Below, one piece after another: positions 1,496 to 38,353 of a DNA stretch of 51,920 nucleotides (the first letter of the stretch is position 1; each line of letters opens with the position of its first letter). The DNA is taken from positions 1 through 51,920 of IMG/VR virus record IMGVR_UViG_3300018080_000234. One strand, given 5' to 3'. The DNA comes from a virus. Position numbers and translations under genes: made by a program. The notes below the pieces were generated by a model. It was not told where the DNA came from. It did no database searches and saw only the letters and a list, made by a program, of their open reading frames with translations.

Positions 1496-3342
1496 GCCTT
1501 GTGCACACATTGAACAACACCGTTATCCCCGATGAGGATATAATTGCATACGGAAAAGACGAGCAATCGGTTGACTTTAATGGCAATACACTGATTGCAT
1601 CCGAATATACTATCGATATTGACGATCTTGATCGAGACGATTACAACCCGCTTTATTCGGGCTCTCTGCTGTACGGCGTGTCGTGGTGGAATAAGGAAAT
1701 CACGGTATTCGACTCGGATAACGGTGTTTACATCTGGCGCGGAAGGCTCAAAAAATTTAAGGGCGACTGGGCGAACAACAAGCTCACCATTACATCGTCA
1801 AATTATATTCAGGATGCTATTGATACAATCTGCGTATATGAGAACACGGGAAACAAAACGCCGGCTCAGATTGTTTACGAGCTCCTCACGGATAATCTTG
1901 GAATAGATGATTCATACATCAATTACAGCGGGTTCCAGAGCGCAATCAATATCCAAACGGCAAGCACAGTATATACCAAAGTGGTATTCACGAAAGACGA
2001 TAGCAAAAACGTGCTTCAAGTCATTGCAGAGCTATGCAGGATCACGCAATGTGTGTTGTATGTTGTCAACAATATCATCAGCCTGTGGCAATATGAGGAA
2101 TGGGGGGGACTGCTTGGGTTCGAGGTCAGAAATGACGATATTGTCGAGGGCAGTTTCAAGTTTGAAACAGTTGAGGACAGGATAATAAATGACTACTCCG
2201 TGGCATACGAAAATGGCGCGAATATCGCATTATCGACAGATTCAAATGCGGCATCAATTTCCAATTATGGAATTACGAAGTCGTTTCTCGTGCCCGATGA
2301 GGACGTTGACTCAACACTCGCGGCTGACTATAAAATCCTTTTTCTGAATGCTGCCGCTGCAGGGTGGGCGGGCGATCTCGCAATCACCCGATATAAAAAC
2401 ATTCTCTATAAATGCGAATTCATCCTTGATAACCTGAAAGGGGAATGGAATTTTCTGGAATTAAACGATCAACTCGATCTAAATTTTTATCCGCCGTTTG
2501 TTCGCGAGCCGATACGAGTCACGAAACTTGTCAAAGACAAAGATAAAAAGCTCATCAACATAGAGGCGATATTCCTCAACCTGCCGGTGAACGCCTATGC
2601 CCGCGATGTGGAAGCGCCTATCCCCGTCGAGCTGATGTCTGTTATCGGGGGAGATAGGACGTTGTTTATCAAATGGACGCAATCCGCCGAAGACGATCAT
2701 CTTGGATATTACGTTTACATCACGTCAACCCCGGGGGAATGGGAGACGGAATTCTGCAACATGGGGCGCAGCAGGATCGACATAAAAAACCCATCGACTA
2801 TCGAGGGGTATGCATATGTTGTTCTATCACAGCTGAACAATGGCACCAGATACTACGTGAAAGTTACGAGCTACGATACGTCGTTTAACGAGAGCGAAGA
2901 TTCAAATATTTTAAGCGCGACACCTTTCGCCGCAACCGGGTTCGAAAATGTGTATATGCTCCAGGGCGATCCGTATATTGACGGGCTCACTCTCGATATC
3001 ACGAATGCCGAGGGCGGGACGGTTCCGGAAGAATTTACAACTTATGAGGATTTTGACATCCCAGAATTCAGCGATGTTATCGCTGCCATATATGAATCCG
3101 ACAGGCATCACAAAACTGGCGGATTTACGTCGATAGAATGGAAGGCGGCTGGCGATCCTGAAGACGTAAAATTTCAATACCGGACGTATGACGGATCCGA
3201 CTGGAGCGACTGGTCAGCCGCCATTGATGCTGTCGGGGTAAAGTCTCAAAGCATAAGCGAGGAATATTTTCAGTATCGATTTATTTTCTATTCAACATTC
3301 TGGAGCGATTCGGATAGCGTAATCGTCAGGGATATATATTAG
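1492..3342 (+). CDS. Tail-tip/baseplate protein with a fibronectin type III domain
   Basis: This 616-residue protein follows the fibre gene with an ATGA overlap. The first 370 residues resemble a tail hub or distal-tail protein: beta-rich, with a region around residues 60-110 (WWNKEITVFDSDNGVYIW) like the N-terminal barrel of baseplate hub proteins. Residues about 380-485 fit an FN3 fold (WTQSAEDDHLGYYVYI ... YVVLSQLNNGTRYYVKV), a common stick-on domain in tail-tip proteins. The C-terminal 130 residues are another beta-rich module. Its position next to fibre genes supports a role in adsorption-complex assembly. The exact family is not certain. Confidence 0.6.
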   Translation: MSLVHTLNNTVIPDEDIIAYGKDEQSVDFNGNTLIASEYTIDIDDLDRDDYNPLYSGSLLYGVSWWNKEITVFDSDNGVYIWRGRLKKFKGDWANNKLTITSSNYIQDAIDTICVYENTGNKTPAQIVYELLTDNLGIDDSYINYSGFQSAINIQTASTVYTKVVFTKDDSKNVLQVIAELCRITQCVLYVVNNIISLWQYEEWGGLLGFEVRNDDIVEGSFKFETVEDRIINDYSVAYENGANIALSTDSNAASISNYGITKSFLVPDEDVDSTLAADYKILFLNAAAAGWAGDLAITRYKNILYKCEFILDNLKGEWNFLELNDQLDLNFYPPFVREPIRVTKLVKDKDKKLINIEAIFLNLPVNAYARDVEAPIPVELMSVIGGDRTLFIKWTQSAEDDHLGYYVYITSTPGEWETEFCNMGRSRIDIKNPSTIEGYAYVVLSQLNNGTRYYVKVTSYDTSFNESEDSNILSATPFAATGFENVYMLQGDPYIDGLTLDITNAEGGTVPEEFTTYEDFDIPEFSDVIAAIYESDRHHKTGGFTSIEWKAAGDPEDVKFQYRTYDGSDWSDWSAAIDAVGVKSQSISEEYFQYRFIFYSTFWSDSDSVIVRDIY

Positions 3343-7898: not shown

Positions 7899-7927
7899 TG
7901 CCTCGCCTTTCCGCGGGGCATTTTTTT
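7899..7927 (+). terminator. Rho-independent terminator ending the lysis operon
   Basis: TGCCTCGC pairs with GCGGGGCA (8 bp, one G-T) around a CTTTCC loop, followed by seven T. It lies 50 bases after the last lysis gene. Confidence 0.85.
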
Positions 7928-8005: not shown

Positions 8006-8034
8006 TTGACAAATTTGTGACAATTCAGTATATT
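8006..8034 (+). promoter_or_regulatory. Consensus sigma-70-type promoter
   Basis: A perfect -35 TTGACA (8006-8011), a 17-base spacer and a -10 TATATT (8029-8034) precede the gene at 8065. The region is very AT-rich upstream. It should read the four small genes up to the terminator at 9795 and is the strongest promoter match in the window, so this block may be expressed early or in the lysogen. Confidence 0.85.
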
Positions 8035-8064: not shown

Positions 8065-8688
8065 ATGAAAGCAGATAGCCTGAAGGAAGCCTACCAAGTT
8101 GGACAAAAAATCAGAGAACTCTATAATGGCGATTACGAGACCGCAATCAATATGGATGATGAACTCTACCAAGACATGAGGCAATGGACACATGCCTATT
8201 ACATGTTTTGCGAATGCGGGATCAGGGAATACGATATACCGCAAAAAGTCAAGGCTTGGAGATATGGTAAGATCAACGGTGAAATGAGCTACAATTATAG
8301 AGATGATCGACCGGAGAAGGGAATATCAGTTATGCAAGTTAAGGGCGGTGAAAAGACCAACACCCTCTATGAAGCGATTAACGGCGGAGACATCATATAT
8401 CTTACTGGCTACCTGCTCCCTTGGCATGGTGCCGATGGAGAACCACTCTTGGTTGCGTGCAAAGAGATCACCCAAGAGGAGTATAACATGGGCGCATCCC
8501 CGAAAGGGGAAATAAAAAAGAGGAGAGAGAGAATGAAATTTAAATTTAGTATCGAGATAGAAGTTGACCAAATATGGATTGATGACGGATTAACCGCCAA
8601 TGGCATAAAAGAAGAATTGGGATATTTTATTGAAGAGCGACTAATCCCTTATGCTGTTGAGGGAGAAATCAAGGCAACAATTAAATAG
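8065..8688 (+). CDS. Hypothetical protein, apparent fusion across a translated leader module
   Basis: A 207-residue ORF; ATG 8065 follows GAGAGGGAGA. Residues 1-141 form a plausible alpha/beta domain (MKADSLKEAYQVGQKIRELY at the start). Residues 142-156 (GASPKGEIKKRRERM) are the translation of a leader module found untranslated before the next three genes. The last 51 residues begin at ATG 8533, which has its own AGGAGAGAGAG site. So this is either a real fusion caused by loss of a stop, or two coupled products from one frame. The function is unknown. Confidence 0.5.
   Translation: MKADSLKEAYQVGQKIRELYNGDYETAINMDDELYQDMRQWTHAYYMFCECGIREYDIPQKVKAWRYGKINGEMSYNYRDDRPEKGISVMQVKGGEKTNTLYEAINGGDIIYLTGYLLPWHGADGEPLLVACKEITQEEYNMGASPKGEIKKRRERMKFKFSIEIEVDQIWIDDGLTANGIKEELGYFIEERLIPYAVEGEIKATIK
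8490..8532 (+). promoter_or_regulatory. Leader module A (translated copy)
   Basis: GGGCGCAT is followed by a CCCC-GAAA-GGGG tetraloop hairpin (8498-8509), then AAATAAA and a purine-rich ribosome site. It matches leader modules B and C downstream but lies inside an open frame, and would drive internal initiation at 8533. Confidence 0.55.
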
Positions 8689-8693
8689 CACCC

Positions 8694-8773
8694 CGCCCGC
8701 TGGCACTCGCTGGGGTTCAATTCCCCAGCCGGGCGCATGCTCGAAAGAGCAAATTAAAGAGAGGAGAAAAGAG
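8694..8773 (+). promoter_or_regulatory. Leader module B: tRNA-like acceptor/T-arm helix plus tetraloop and ribosome site
   Basis: CGCCCG (8694-8699) pairs with CGGGCG (8730-8735). Inside it GCTGGGG (8709-8715) pairs with CCCCAGC (8723-8729) across the loop TTCAATT, which is a normal tRNA T-loop. CA follows. A GCTC-GAAA-GAGC hairpin (8739-8750) and GAGAGGAG then lead to ATG 8774. This is an acceptor plus T-arm without D or anticodon arms, the minimal shape recognised by RNase P in bacteria. Confidence 0.7.
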
Positions 8774-8962
8774 ATGAAACTAACAATAAGGGAAATCAAA
8801 GAAGCTCACGCACAATGGACGTTTGATGGTGGTTGCACAGCATGGAGGAAACTGTGTGACCTGATGCCACCAAAAGATAGTAGAATTACACATAATGTTG
8901 CAAGGGAAATCAATTCACAATTATCACCATCGGAAATACAAGAATTGAAAGAAATTATTTAG
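8774..8962 (+). CDS. Small hypothetical protein (62 residues)
   Basis: ATG 8774 has a strong GAGAGGAG site. The protein is acidic-to-neutral and helical, with a Trp-rich central turn (AHAQWTFDGGCTAWRKL) and a C-terminal helix (SPSEIQELKEII). It is not recognised. It is one of four small genes carrying the repeated leader modules. Confidence 0.55.
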   Translation: MKLTIREIKEAHAQWTFDGGCTAWRKLCDLMPPKDSRITHNVAREINSQLSPSEIQELKEII

Positions 8963-8968
8963 CACCCC

Positions 8969-9046
8969 CGCCCGCTGGCACTCGCTGGGGTTCAATTCCT
9001 CGGCCGGGCGCATCCCCAAAAGGGGAAATAAAGAGAGGAGAAAGAG
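8969..9046 (+). promoter_or_regulatory. Leader module C: second tRNA-like helix plus tetraloop and ribosome site
   Basis: The same architecture as module B: CGCCCG (8969-8974) with CGGGCG (9005-9010), and GCTGGGG (8984-8990) with CCTCGGC (8998-9004) around TTCAATT. Substitutions against module B turn Watson-Crick pairs into G-T pairs, so the fold is kept. A CCCC-AAAA-GGGG hairpin (9014-9025) and AGAGAGGAG precede ATG 9047. Confidence 0.7.
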
Positions 9047-9280
9047 ATGAATGCACAGGAATTTATCGCCGCCGTAAGCCATGAAAATGAGAACAACTGG
9101 GCAAATTCCGACCTCCGGGAGGAAACCGAAGAAATGCTCAGAAAAATTGCAGAACATTTTGTGGAGTGCGAGGAATGTCGAAATGATTTTGACGCTATGC
9201 TGTATGAAGAGGAAACACTCATTGACTTCGAGCGCATTCTTTCGCAAACAAAATTGTCTGATTGGATATGCGAGAAATGA
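9047..9280 (+). CDS. Small acidic hypothetical protein (77 residues)
   Basis: ATG 9047 follows GAGAGGAGAAAGAG. The protein is strongly acidic and mostly helical, with a C-x2-C pair (VECEECRNDF). The acidic, DNA-mimic-like composition is seen in phage inhibitors of host enzymes, but that is only a guess. No family is recognised. Confidence 0.55.
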   Translation: MNAQEFIAAVSHENENNWANSDLREETEEMLRKIAEHFVECEECRNDFDAMLYEEETLIDFERILSQTKLSDWICEK

Positions 9281-9286
9281 TTTATG

Positions 9287-9371
9287 CAGCCCGCCGCCGT
9301 GTTGTCGATAGTACGCTTCAAGGCACGGTGGGCAAATTCCCTGAAAAAGGAAAACTAAAGAGGAGATAAAA
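9287..9371 (+). promoter_or_regulatory. Leader module D: long hairpin plus ribosome site
   Basis: GCCCGCC plus GTG on the 5' side (9289-9301) pairs with CACGGTGGGC (9324-9333), with a small bulge and a 22-base loop. A weak CCCTGAAAAAGG hairpin and AAAGAGGAG then precede ATG 9372. The order helix, small hairpin, purine-rich ribosome site matches modules B and C, although the sequence differs. Confidence 0.5.
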
Positions 9372-9788
9372 ATGAACGAGAAAAAAATAACATTTCGACT
9401 GTCCGAAAATCAATACGAGAGATTCCGCTCCGTTTTCCCCGAGGGGGCGGATCACCACATCGGCGGGGCATTCGTCTCGGAATGCCTGAACATGTTCCGC
9501 AACACCCTGCTGGAGCTGAAGGGCGTGTTCAACCGGGACGAAATCGGTGCTCTTGTTGACATAACGAATACGTGGTTGATGGATTTCTCGCAGTTCTCAG
9601 CCCGGCAAATGCTCCTGCACGAGCTGGAGGACTATTTCCGGTTGGAGCAGGGATCGGAATTTCCCCCTGAATTTCGGGAGAAAATAGAATCGCTAACGGA
9701 GTTTCAGGTATATGTACTTCTCCGCCAGATTAAGGCGGACTGGAAATCTGAGGATGTTGTCGGGGAATCGGAAAAATTGTTTTGCTGA
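9372..9788 (+). CDS. Hypothetical protein with RHH-like start (138 residues)
   Basis: The first 12 residues (MNEKKITFRLSENQYERF) look like the beta strand and first helix of a ribbon-helix-helix protein, as in small plasmid and phage regulators. The remaining 110 residues are helical and acidic, and include two Phe-rich helices. It ends the leader-module operon immediately before a terminator. A regulator or DNA-binding role is possible from the N-terminus only. Confidence 0.5.
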   Translation: MNEKKITFRLSENQYERFRSVFPEGADHHIGGAFVSECLNMFRNTLLELKGVFNRDEIGALVDITNTWLMDFSQFSARQMLLHELEDYFRLEQGSEFPPEFREKIESLTEFQVYVLLRQIKADWKSEDVVGESEKLFC

Positions 9789-9794
9789 AGATGT

Positions 9795-9819
9795 GCCCGC
9801 TCCGTGCGGGCGTTTTTTT
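9795..9819 (+). terminator. Rho-independent terminator
   Basis: GCCCGC-TCCGT-GCGGGC is followed by G and seven T, directly after the gene ending at 9788. It separates the leader-module operon from the integrase. Confidence 0.9.
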
Positions 9820-16265: not shown

Positions 16266-16516
16266 TGCAGATCGGAGCTTGTTGGATCAAACAGACACAG
16301 GATGGGCAGTCGTATCTGTCCTGTCAAATTCAGGTACCATTACTAACAATCAATTTCGCTTTATTCAAGGCGAAGGAGAAAAAATCGGCGAATTCCCCGG
16401 ACTACAACATTATCTGGAGTGTGCCACGGAAAAAAACTGAAGCAGTATCGTCCTACAGTCCGTTCGAGTCCTACAATCCGTTCGACGATAGTGCCGTGCC
16501 GACGGGGGGGCGATGA
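16265..16516 (+). CDS. DUF736-like small protein
   Basis: An 83-residue protein starting at GTG 16265, overlapping the previous stop. The sequence IGACWIKQTQDGQSYLSCQI, then an NIIWSVPRKK strand, resembles the DUF736 beta-rich family. The last 30 residues are Ser/Pro/Phe-rich, like an acidic tail. The function of that family is not established. Confidence 0.5.
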   Translation: MQIGACWIKQTQDGQSYLSCQIQVPLLTINFALFKAKEKKSANSPDYNIIWSVPRKKTEAVSSYSPFESYNPFDDSAVPTGGR

Positions 16517-16695
16517 TGTACCATTTTAGGCCAAATTACGCAGAACTCCACCGCATGAATGAACATATCATGGGGCGGGGATACCTTAAAGATCGGGATT
16601 ATTACAAGCGTCGCGATCAGGAGCTGGCGGAAGCCGAACGGCTGAGGAAGCCAGCTGACTGCGGTATACAGCAGTCGGGAAGGGGAGGGGAATAA
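16513..16695 (+). CDS. Small charged hypothetical protein (60 residues)
   Basis: It starts by overlap with the previous stop. It is rich in Tyr, Arg and Glu, with an RDYYKRRDQELAEAERLRK helix. It ends two bases before the tRNA-like element. No family is recognised. Confidence 0.45.
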   Translation: MMYHFRPNYAELHRMNEHIMGRGYLKDRDYYKRRDQELAEAERLRKPADCGIQQSGRGGE

Positions 16696-16696
16696 T

Positions 16697-16765
16697 GGGC
16701 AGGTTGAATCCGGCAACCTGGCTAATCCACAAAGCACAGCCGGGGTTCAATTCCCCGGCTGCCCG
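16697..16765 (+). tRNA. Degenerate tRNA-like element (possible tRNA pseudogene)
   Basis: GGGCAG at the 5' end pairs with CTGCCC at the 3' end, and a full T-arm is present (CCGGGG-TTCAATT-CCCCGG). AGGTTG-CAACCT forms another helix that competes with the acceptor. The anticodon arm is poor (CTGGCT against AGCACAG with a bulge; CCA lies in the loop). At 69 bases it is short. It sits five bases before a normal tRNA-Thr gene, so it is probably a decayed second tRNA. Confidence 0.4.
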
Positions 16766-16769
16766 AAAA

Positions 16770-16842
16770 GCCGGTGTAGCTCAACTGGTAGAGCGACTGA
16801 TTTGTAATCAGTTTGTTGGGGGTTCAATTCCTCTCGCCGGCC
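16770..16842 (+). tRNA. tRNA-Thr (anticodon TGT)
   Basis: A full cloverleaf: acceptor GCCGGTG/CGCCGGC (one G-T), D-stem GCTC/GAGC, anticodon stem ACTGA/TCAGT with loop TTTGTAA (anticodon TGT at 16803-16805), and T-stem GGGGG/CCTCT with loop TTCAATT. A complete CCA is not encoded; the gene is followed by CAATG. It reads ACA codons, used often in this genome. Confidence 0.9.
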
Positions 16843-36885: not shown

Positions 36886-37619
36886 CAATGTTCACAGTCT
36901 TATCGAAAGACTTCCTTGTCGGATACAAGGTGTTTATGAAGTCATTTCTCTATCATAATCCGTGGTTCGATTTGGATTTCATAATTCTCGATATAGATTT
37001 ACCGCAGGAAGTGAAGGGCATTTGCAAAGAGATTTACCCGAAAGTAATTTTCAGGAAGCCAGATTATAAAGCCTATGAAGATGTTAATTTTTCAGCAACC
37101 CATCAAAAGCTACAAAGTACATATTATTTTCTGGATGCTTTTTGCCAGTATGATTACGACAAGGTTGTTTCTATTGATGTTGATATGGTTATTCTGGATT
37201 CCCTTGAGCCTGTTTTTAAGGACACGGGAGACGGTATCGCAGCCTGTCCGGGGTACTCGAAAAGAAAAGATAGGATAGTAAAACTGATGAATGCCGGTCT
37301 TTTCGTGGTGGGGAAAAAATATCTCAATGAAAAGACATACATGGACTTGATTGAAATTATCAAACAGGGCTTTTCGATGCCCGAGCAGAAAACGATGAAT
37401 ATCTATTTCGACGGGAAATTCGAGTGGCTCCCGAAAAGATATAACATTGAAAAGCGCATGATGAAAACACGAAGGTACAGAAAGATTCTGTCTGGTATGG
37501 CTGGCCTGCATTTTGTGGGACTCAAGCCGTGGCAGGATCACTCGAGGTGCCCTGATAACGAAAAGGGGTATGAGAAATTTGAGGATATATGGTGGACATG
37601 GTATCACAAGAAGGTATGA
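36876..37619 (+). CDS. GT8-like glycosyltransferase, copy 1
   Basis: A 247-residue retaining-type glycosyltransferase. SIDVDMVIL has the DxD metal site at residues 101-103; a later NAGLFVVG and HFVGLKPWQDHS match the GT8 end motif (H-x-x-G-x-K-P-W). It shares long stretches with the next gene (MKSFLYHNPWFDLDF, EIYPKV). The acceptor is unknown, presumably the cassette glycan. Confidence 0.75.
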   Translation: MEIAMFTVLSKDFLVGYKVFMKSFLYHNPWFDLDFIILDIDLPQEVKGICKEIYPKVIFRKPDYKAYEDVNFSATHQKLQSTYYFLDAFCQYDYDKVVSIDVDMVILDSLEPVFKDTGDGIAACPGYSKRKDRIVKLMNAGLFVVGKKYLNEKTYMDLIEIIKQGFSMPEQKTMNIYFDGKFEWLPKRYNIEKRMMKTRRYRKILSGMAGLHFVGLKPWQDHSRCPDNEKGYEKFEDIWWTWYHKKV

Positions 37620-38353
37620 AAGCATGTCTTTTCGCAATAATGACTGAAGATTATTTCAAGGGATTTTATGTTACCATGAAATCATTTTTGTATCATAATC
37701 CATGGTTTGATCTGGATTTCGTCATAATTGATATTAATTTGAATGAGGAAACGAAGAAAAAAATTTTAGAGATTTACCCGAAGGTTCTTTTCAGGAAGCC
37801 AAATTACGGCTTATACGAGGGTGGAAATTATGAAAAGCTATACAAGAAGAATAAGGTAAATCAGTTTTATCTTGAGTGCTTTAATTTATGTGATTACGGC
37901 AAGGTTGTTTCAATTGATCTCGATCTCCTCATTCTTGGCGATATGAGATCATTATTTTTTAATACCGGGGATGATCTGTATTGCCCGAAAGGGTTTTCGA
38001 TAAGGAAAAAACGGGTATTGAACACATGCCAGGCCGGGGTTTTTGTTGTTGGTAAAAACTATATAAATAAAGAAATTTACCTCAAACTTATTGAGTTTAG
38101 CAAGCAGGGCTTTAGATACGGCGAACAAACAGTTATCAATAAATATTTTCAAGGTCAGATTAAATGGTTACCGAAGCGATATAATGTTGAAAAAAGTATG
38201 CTAAAAATAAAAACAAAACGTCAATTGTTTAACGATTGCGTGGTGCTTCATTTTGTCGGTCTTCATCCGTGGCAAGATCACTCAAATTGTAAAGATAAAG
38301 ATAAAGGATATGAGGACCTGGAAAATCTCTGGTGGGAGTGGTATCATAAATGA
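37616..38353 (+). CDS. GT8-like glycosyltransferase, copy 2
   Basis: A 245-residue tandem paralogue starting by ATGA overlap at 37616. SIDLDLLIL (DxD at 101-103), QAGVFVVG and HFVGLHPWQDHS are kept, though Lys of the KPW motif is His. Divergence from copy 1 is substantial, so the two probably add different sugars or use different acceptors. Confidence 0.75.
   Translation: MKACLFAIMTEDYFKGFYVTMKSFLYHNPWFDLDFVIIDINLNEETKKKILEIYPKVLFRKPNYGLYEGGNYEKLYKKNKVNQFYLECFNLCDYGKVVSIDLDLLILGDMRSLFFNTGDDLYCPKGFSIRKKRVLNTCQAGVFVVGKNYINKEIYLKLIEFSKQGFRYGEQTVINKYFQGQIKWLPKRYNVEKSMLKIKTKRQLFNDCVVLHFVGLHPWQDHSNCKDKDKGYEDLENLWWEWYHK

Follow-up and report, generated by a model that had tools for sequence, protein, structure and literature searches.

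The window, the whole stretch of 51,920 bases analyzed here, begins and ends with the same 70 bases and is therefore probably a complete circularly permuted or circular genome. Its terminase is closest to those of an uncultivated spring phage and a Desulfofustis phage (~49% identity), and a search for close protein relatives of the window by means of the recombinase returned one distant locus only. The locus under study is a five-gene operon that probably starts at the promoter sequence at 8006..8034 and ends at an intrinsic terminator; downstream of the operon lies a serine recombinase gene (Pfam and PHROG). No recognized function was found with Pfam or PHROG for the five small operon ORFs, and the match of ORF4 to Evr1_Alr (Erv1/Alr sulfhydryl oxidase family; E = 9e-6) lies under the curated cutoff. 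Elsewhere in the window (36936-38113), a tandem gene pair ~740 bases apart contains several stretches that are 70 to 90% alike (repeats D7, D8, D13, and D15). The features are as follows.

8006..8034, plus strand: probable operon promoter TTGACA-N17-TATATT, sigma-70-like, 11/12 consensus bases
8065..8688, plus strand: ORF1 and ORF2 (ATG at 8533), one frame with no stop in between
8490..8516, plus strand: relic leader with the 3' part of the module only, GGGCGCAT plus hairpin TCCCC-GAAA-GGGGA plus AAATAAA (repeat family D6, fold)
8694..8735, plus strand: mini-tRNA-like element 1, 42 nt (fold, structural scan, covariance model R1)
8694-8699/8730-8735, plus strand: acceptor of element 1, 6 bp, CGCCCG/CGGGCG
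8700-8708, plus strand: linker of element 1, CTGGCACTC, 9 nt, with GG at 8702-8703
8709-8715/8723-8729, plus strand: T-stem of element 1, 7 bp, GCTGGGG/CCCCAGC
8716-8722, plus strand: T-loop of element 1, TTCAATT
8738..8751, plus strand: hairpin TGCTC-GAAA-GAGCA, 5 bp, immediately 3' of element 1
8759..8766, plus strand: ribosome-binding sequence of ORF3, GAGAGGAG
8774..8962, plus strand: ORF3, 62 amino acids
8969..9010, plus strand: mini-tRNA-like element 2, 42 nt, laid out as element 1 with two G-U-compatible differences
9013..9026, plus strand: hairpin TCCCC-AAAA-GGGGA, 5 bp, 3' of element 2
9033..9040, plus strand: ribosome-binding sequence of ORF4, GAGAGGAG
9047..9280, plus strand: ORF4, 77 amino acids
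9289..9333, plus strand: long GC-rich stem of another kind, occupying the element's place in the fourth leader (leader, 9281-9371)
9372..9788, plus strand: ORF5, 138 amino acids, final gene of the operon
9793..9813, plus strand: intrinsic terminator, 8-bp stem plus T run, ending the operon (terminator scan)
16696..16768, plus strand: longer tRNA-like relative, just 3' of the stop of ORF 16513-16695 (fold z = -3.4)

From 5' to 3', the element reads CGCCCG, CTGGCACTC, GCTGGGG, TTCAATT, CCCCAGC, CGGGCG, with two positions differing between the copies, and in both copies an acceptor-like helix is stacked on a T-arm (13 bp in total). The initial annotation had described two near-identical helices of this kind, and both are indeed present: the minimum free energy fold of each element leader consists of precisely this acceptor/T-arm structure and the hairpin 3' of it (z, -3.5 in copy 1 and -1.4 in copy 2). 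When both strands of the window were scanned for the structure (T-loop GTTCRANYC; GG-containing linker of 8 to 12 nt; 11 bp or more), elements 1 and 2 were the only matches, and 200 dinucleotide shuffles gave none. The D and anticodon arms are absent, as had been noted, and the 9-nt linker stands in their place; the elements are nevertheless not bare helices, since the CTGG of the linker holds a D-loop-like GG that is conserved across the family. The differences between the copies had been read as compensating. They do keep the pairing, with C-to-T and A-to-G changes in the 3' strand of the T-stem turning G-C and U-A pairs into G-U and U-G, but they are compatible only and not double-sided. 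Double-sided changes between the copies sit in the downstream hairpin (TGCTC/GAGCA versus TCCCC/GGGGA), whose stem has 5 bp rather than the 4 bp first counted.

Four leaders lie within 8490-9371, and only two of them carry the full element. The relic leader at the ORF1/ORF2 junction suggests that the 5' part of an element was lost there and that the two genes became fused. In the fourth leader, the long stem is followed by a small stem and then by AAGAGGAG (9358-9365). The longer relative at 16696-16768 adjoins tRNA-Thr and has a GGGCAG/CTGCCC acceptor, D-arm-like and T-arm hairpins, and a degenerate anticodon region. Model R1, described below, matches its T-arm alone (16.6 bits), and this sequence possibly represents a transitional form linking tRNA to the minimal element.

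ARAGORN and Rfam run on the window reported tRNA-Thr (16770-16842) and nothing at the two elements. Among Rfam 15 families, none matched the element above its gathering threshold, and true tRNAs alone were reported. The element resembles tRNA (RF00005) in its T-arm G-TTCRANY-C, with GTTCAATTC in both window copies, in its acceptor-like stem, and in a GG that could form an elbow, but it differs from the tRNA cloverleaf in having neither D-stem nor anticodon arm. It also has the stacked acceptor/T helix of ~12 bp, ending in the T-loop, that characterizes a minimal RNase P substrate; this helix spans 11 to 13 bp among 92 elements that we parsed. No CCA is encoded, the 3' RCCA with which RNase P RNA pairs is missing, and the 3' flank of the window elements is G-C-A in a 12-bp register or C-A in a 13-bp register. 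Positions 73-74 are often A-C in the parsed set (A in 47/92, C in 58/92) and invariantly so in the Streptomyces set.

We defined a family, the phage mini-tRNA-like element, by an acceptor of at least 5 bp, a linker of 8 to 12 nt with GG, a T-arm, and 11 to 13 bp in total, in sense orientation between genes; both window copies belong to it. For a census, viral contigs were scanned for T-arm-like palindromes, and removal of ARAGORN tRNAs and tmRNAs left 331 T-arms. An acceptor helix adjoined 62 of these, compared with a mean of 8 and a maximum of 14 when the upstream halves were swapped. Slightly wider rules gave 104 elements, 94 of them with GG in the linker, a set on which pairing statistics are biased because the selection rules reward pairing. 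The GG begins 2 to 3 nt after the acceptor in 85 of the 92 parsed elements; its presence was required in this set, and its offset was not imposed. As the loci were sampled by T-arm patterns, the census counts give no estimate of abundance. The model E values are rough.

The initial annotation had proposed a covariance model search of phage genomes. Seeds of mixed length aligned with MAFFT (A1) placed the linker wrongly, and we used an ungapped set (A2) instead. Model R1 rests on 22 ungapped seeds, none of them from the window. R1 recovered both copies (element 1, 35.2 bits, E = 3e-6; element 2, 25.7 bits, E = 7e-4) together with many relatives, including arrays of 10 matches in one contig (L078), 7 in another (L128), and 4 to 5 in several more. 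A second model, R2, was built on 97 aligned matches, and the T-loop core is invariant across the model alignments. By covariance model, the element is present, unannotated, in dozens of viral contigs and in named phages. A seed hit was present in six bacterial genomes; the significant matches formed one tight cluster in each of three of these, and a fourth contained a single match; the cluster in a Streptomyces genome, the one cluster inspected, has phage-type neighbors. A match at E <= 1e-4 occurred in only 3 of 100 actinobacterial genomes. From the scarcity of matches in bacterial genomes, their clustering, and the phage-type neighbors of the examined cluster, we conclude that the element is mainly a phage feature.

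BLAST against named phages with the window leader, a Firmicute-type element, or the L078 repeat gave nothing useful. With one 44-nt element as the query, 167 phage records were matched, mostly at unannotated places, and some of the weaker matches were true tRNAs. Streptomyces phage Joe carries 8 copies and Mycobacterium phage Konstantine 7; R2 found 14 copies in Mycobacterium phage Papyrus, 16 in Gordonia phage VanLee, and 1 each in SWU2 and Munch, and phiC31 has none. In the haloarchaeal virus HRTV-2, R2 gave one strong match (E = 2e-7) and two weak ones, and from this copy the family may cross between the viruses of bacteria and those of archaea. At positions 2985-3027 of the HRTV-2 sequence (L305), the element and a following GC hairpin lie 35 nt upstream of a start codon. 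A match in Xanthomonas phage DoCa6 (E = 0.03) was unconvincing on reading and was left out of the counts. Two existing annotations overlap elements. Joe_78 (19593-19709 of L287), a weak, Glimmer-only ORF running antisense across one Joe element, is probably spurious, and the tRNA-Arg annotated in Endor2 (HUN44_00067; 8379-8461 of L316), which overlaps a coding sequence and coincides with a mini-tRNA-like element at 8378-8421, is probably a miscall.

To describe the genomic position of the element, we used 90 nonredundant copies, for which GG presence was required and gene context was not imposed. On the sense strand, 61/90 copies have a start codon with a ribosome-binding site within 100 nt downstream, compared with 8/90 on the antisense strand, and a stop codon lies no more than 40 nt upstream of 68/90, compared with 20/90. 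The corresponding start and stop figures were 142/450 and 126/450 for random positions and 142/589 and 206/589 for tRNA genes. In annotated stretches of four phages, all 34 copies lie in sense orientation in a gap between same-strand genes (Joe, 8/8; Konstantine, 7/7; Papyrus, 10/10; VanLee, 9/9), and in the Papyrus stretch, there is exactly one copy per gap of at least 60 nt. Copies mostly lie 5 to 15 nt past a stop codon and 9 to 55 nt ahead of the next start. The proposal of a minimal acceptor plus T-arm element at gene junctions is thus strongly supported, the element being intercistronic in many phages. On the reverse strand of the actinophage-like contig L078, nearly every gene is preceded by an element and then by a promoter-like TTGACA...TAGGAT sequence, the two alternating gene by gene. 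Both window copies are followed directly by a small hairpin, and the same is true of Konstantine, of several copies in Joe, and of L128 and L245. We rejected this hairpin as an obligatory part: it is enriched and not universal, the 28 nt downstream folding better than shuffles (P <= 0.05) in 31% of copies and the upstream control of equal length in 19%.

Conservation of pairing in homologues had been set beforehand as the test on which the proposed structure could fail; the pairing proved to be conserved, with extensive covariation. In nine Streptomyces phages, we masked the elements and grouped them according to how similar their flanking sequences are. Within the flank-matched groups, 589 double-sided pair changes stay paired, 54 one-sided changes are compatible, and 28 break a pair; these are comparison counts rather than independent events, and some groups merge more than one gap. 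Judging from these substitutions, the base pairing of the element is under selection. A mutual-information scan of 54 distinct Streptomyces-phage elements ranked highly not only the stem pairs but also columns 15-30, which join the linker to the last T-loop base (A-U 36, G-C 10, C-G 5, U-A 2, G-U 1), and columns 8-14, both in the linker (C-G 38, G-C 16). All three column pairs 8-14, 15-30, and 16-29 are paired without exception in 30 distinct sequences. As these linker-linker and linker/T-loop pairs are absent from the search model, their covariation strongly indicates a folded RNA in which contacts resemble those between the D-loop and the T-loop. They are clear in the subtype with an 11-nt linker only and are unsupported as a universal feature across linker lengths; the 9-nt-linker type of the window has the GG in common with that subtype but not the extra pairs.

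A search of the open-access literature returned no description of the element. The RNA family is thus real and apparently undescribed, and we read its members as cis-acting minimal tRNA mimics that are widespread in the mRNAs of tailed phages.

From the shape and position of the element, we infer a function in RNase P cutting: that RNase P cuts polycistronic phage mRNA at these tRNA mimics is the best explanation and, in our judgment, a reasonably probable one. By our analysis, the element has what a bacterial RNase P substrate needs, namely, a T-stem-loop, a stacked helix of ~12 bp, and a single-stranded 5' leader, and the frequent A-C at positions 73-74 recalls the RCCA contact. Model hairpins of the AT1 type, composed of acceptor, T-stem, and T-loop, are cleaved correctly at the canonical site by Escherichia coli RNase P RNA, the T-loop contacts the S-domain of RNase P, and phage RNAs and polycistronic mRNAs are among the known substrates (PMC11143913). 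The phage elements have in common with these hairpins a single stacked helix of ~12 bp capped by a T-loop; the hairpins, however, are laboratory constructs with a CCA-type 3' end, whereas the phage elements occur naturally in mRNA, keep the GG linker, and mostly have A-C instead of RCCA.

In the proposed mechanism, the linker GG would dock on the T-loop like G18/G19 of tRNA and create a tRNA elbow. Host RNase P would recognize the elbow and the acceptor stem and cut at the base of the acceptor's 5' strand; the predicted cut sites in the window are 8693/8694 or 8694/8695 for element 1 and 8968/8969 or 8969/8970 for element 2. The 3' side would perhaps be trimmed by RNase Z or exonucleases. Cuts shortly after each stop codon would divide the polycistronic transcript (promoter 8006 to terminator 9813) into mRNAs of one gene each. 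Each new 5' end would carry a protective fold, either the element or, if RNase Z cuts too, the small hairpin, and this fold would leave the ribosome-binding site free. Some Papyrus copies argue against the RNase Z step, as they end 9 to 15 nt before the annotated start, so close that a further cut by RNase Z would eliminate the ribosome-binding site there. The missing CCA and the restriction of clear linker/T-loop covariation to the 11-nt-linker subtype also count against the mechanism. In L078, where each copy is followed by promoter-like sequence, the copies would act at a 3' end. The occurrence of the element in viruses of both bacteria and archaea favors a universal enzyme over partners found in bacteria only.

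The mimic might also work uncut: through contact with the ribosome, a translation factor, or some protein that binds tRNA, it would control termination/reinitiation or translation of the next gene from its place at the gene junction. The closeness of the upstream stop codon (often 5 to 8 nt) and of the next ribosome-binding site would suit such a role, as would the conserved tertiary elbow pairs, but acceptors vary freely within one phage (GGGTG, GCCTG, and GCGCG), which leaves no common aminoacylation identity, the distance to the next start is variable, and in L078 promoter-like sequence separates the element from the next gene; we regard this reading as rather unlikely. We judge unlikely, too, that the element is a device for mRNA 3' ends or stability (a factor-dependent terminator without a U-tract, or an exonuclease block) in which tRNA likeness serves stability only. 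It would account for a stable GC-rich fold directly behind stop codons and for the promoter-like sequence after each L078 copy. A plain stem would suffice for it, however, yet conservation extends to the TTCRANY T-loop, to the linker with its GG, and to the pairs between linker and T-loop; the elements also lack the T run of an intrinsic terminator, and the scan placed terminators at 7899 and 9793 only, with none at the elements. The early terminators of phiC31 are reportedly unusual in having no poly-U, and we considered them as a known counterpart; they were rejected, as phiC31 has no copy of the element, an absence that also counts against the 3'-end reading.

A released RNA of ~43 nt could have a role in trans; it might, for instance, be a decoy that targets RNase P, RNase Z, tRNA-modifying enzymes, or defenses that cleave tRNA. 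This would fit the copy number, up to 16 in a genome, and the location in regions of early type where OCR-like antirestriction genes are found as well, yet every copy lies at a gene junction, often filling all the larger gaps, a placement needless for action in trans, and the anticodon arm is absent; this explanation is quite improbable. Least credible of all is a reading without RNA function, in which the copies would be tRNA 3' ends that have decayed or are mobile, or patches left by recombination where cassettes meet. The window leader does resemble the 3' end of the window's own tRNA-Thr and the hairpin that follows it (D4 family; E = 0.05), and the leaders are modular, one of them being a relic. 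Homology patches would keep sequence and not pairing, however, and the double-sided covariation in flank-matched groups and the covarying tertiary pairs require selection on an RNA fold.

Cutting at tRNA mimics by RNase P has parallels in known systems. In mitochondrial tRNA punctuation, plant-mitochondrial and haloarchaeal t-elements, and MALAT1 mascRNA, a tRNA or a mimic within a long transcript marks the sites cut by tRNA-processing enzymes. These are complete tRNAs, RNAs of cloverleaf type, or elements found at one locus, whereas the phage element lacks an anticodon arm, is phage encoded, and occurs in multiple copies at many junctions per genome. The tRNA-like structures of plant viruses are likewise cases of viral tRNA mimicry and are RNase P substrates in vitro, but they are 3' terminal with a pseudoknotted acceptor; the phage elements are internal and have a normal acceptor helix. 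Among phage RNAs, the C4 antisense RNA of P1/P7, M3 RNA, and T4 gene 32 mRNA are cut by host RNase P (PMC11143913); their structures are unrelated to the element, and they form no repeated intercistronic family.

We lean toward the broader view that tailed phages of bacteria and at least some archaeal viruses use a class of minimal tRNA mimics that had escaped notice (acceptor, GG linker, and T-arm) as standard operon punctuation, turning a host tRNA-processing enzyme into a general processor of viral mRNA. If this is right, it would explain what fills many of the ~60- to 110-nt gaps between small early genes, both in uncultivated viruses and in well-studied phages such as the Streptomyces Camvirus and Likavirus and the Mycobacterium Papyrusvirus and Konstantinevirus groups. 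The covariance model can be used for annotation and corrects spurious ORF and tRNA calls, as with Joe_78 and the Endor2 tRNA-Arg, and in polycistronic constructs the elements could serve as short tags for processing. The minimal RNase P substrate was designed in the 1980s; the phage elements would be its first natural family, and the extent of RNase P action in mRNA metabolism would become directly testable in laboratory strains.
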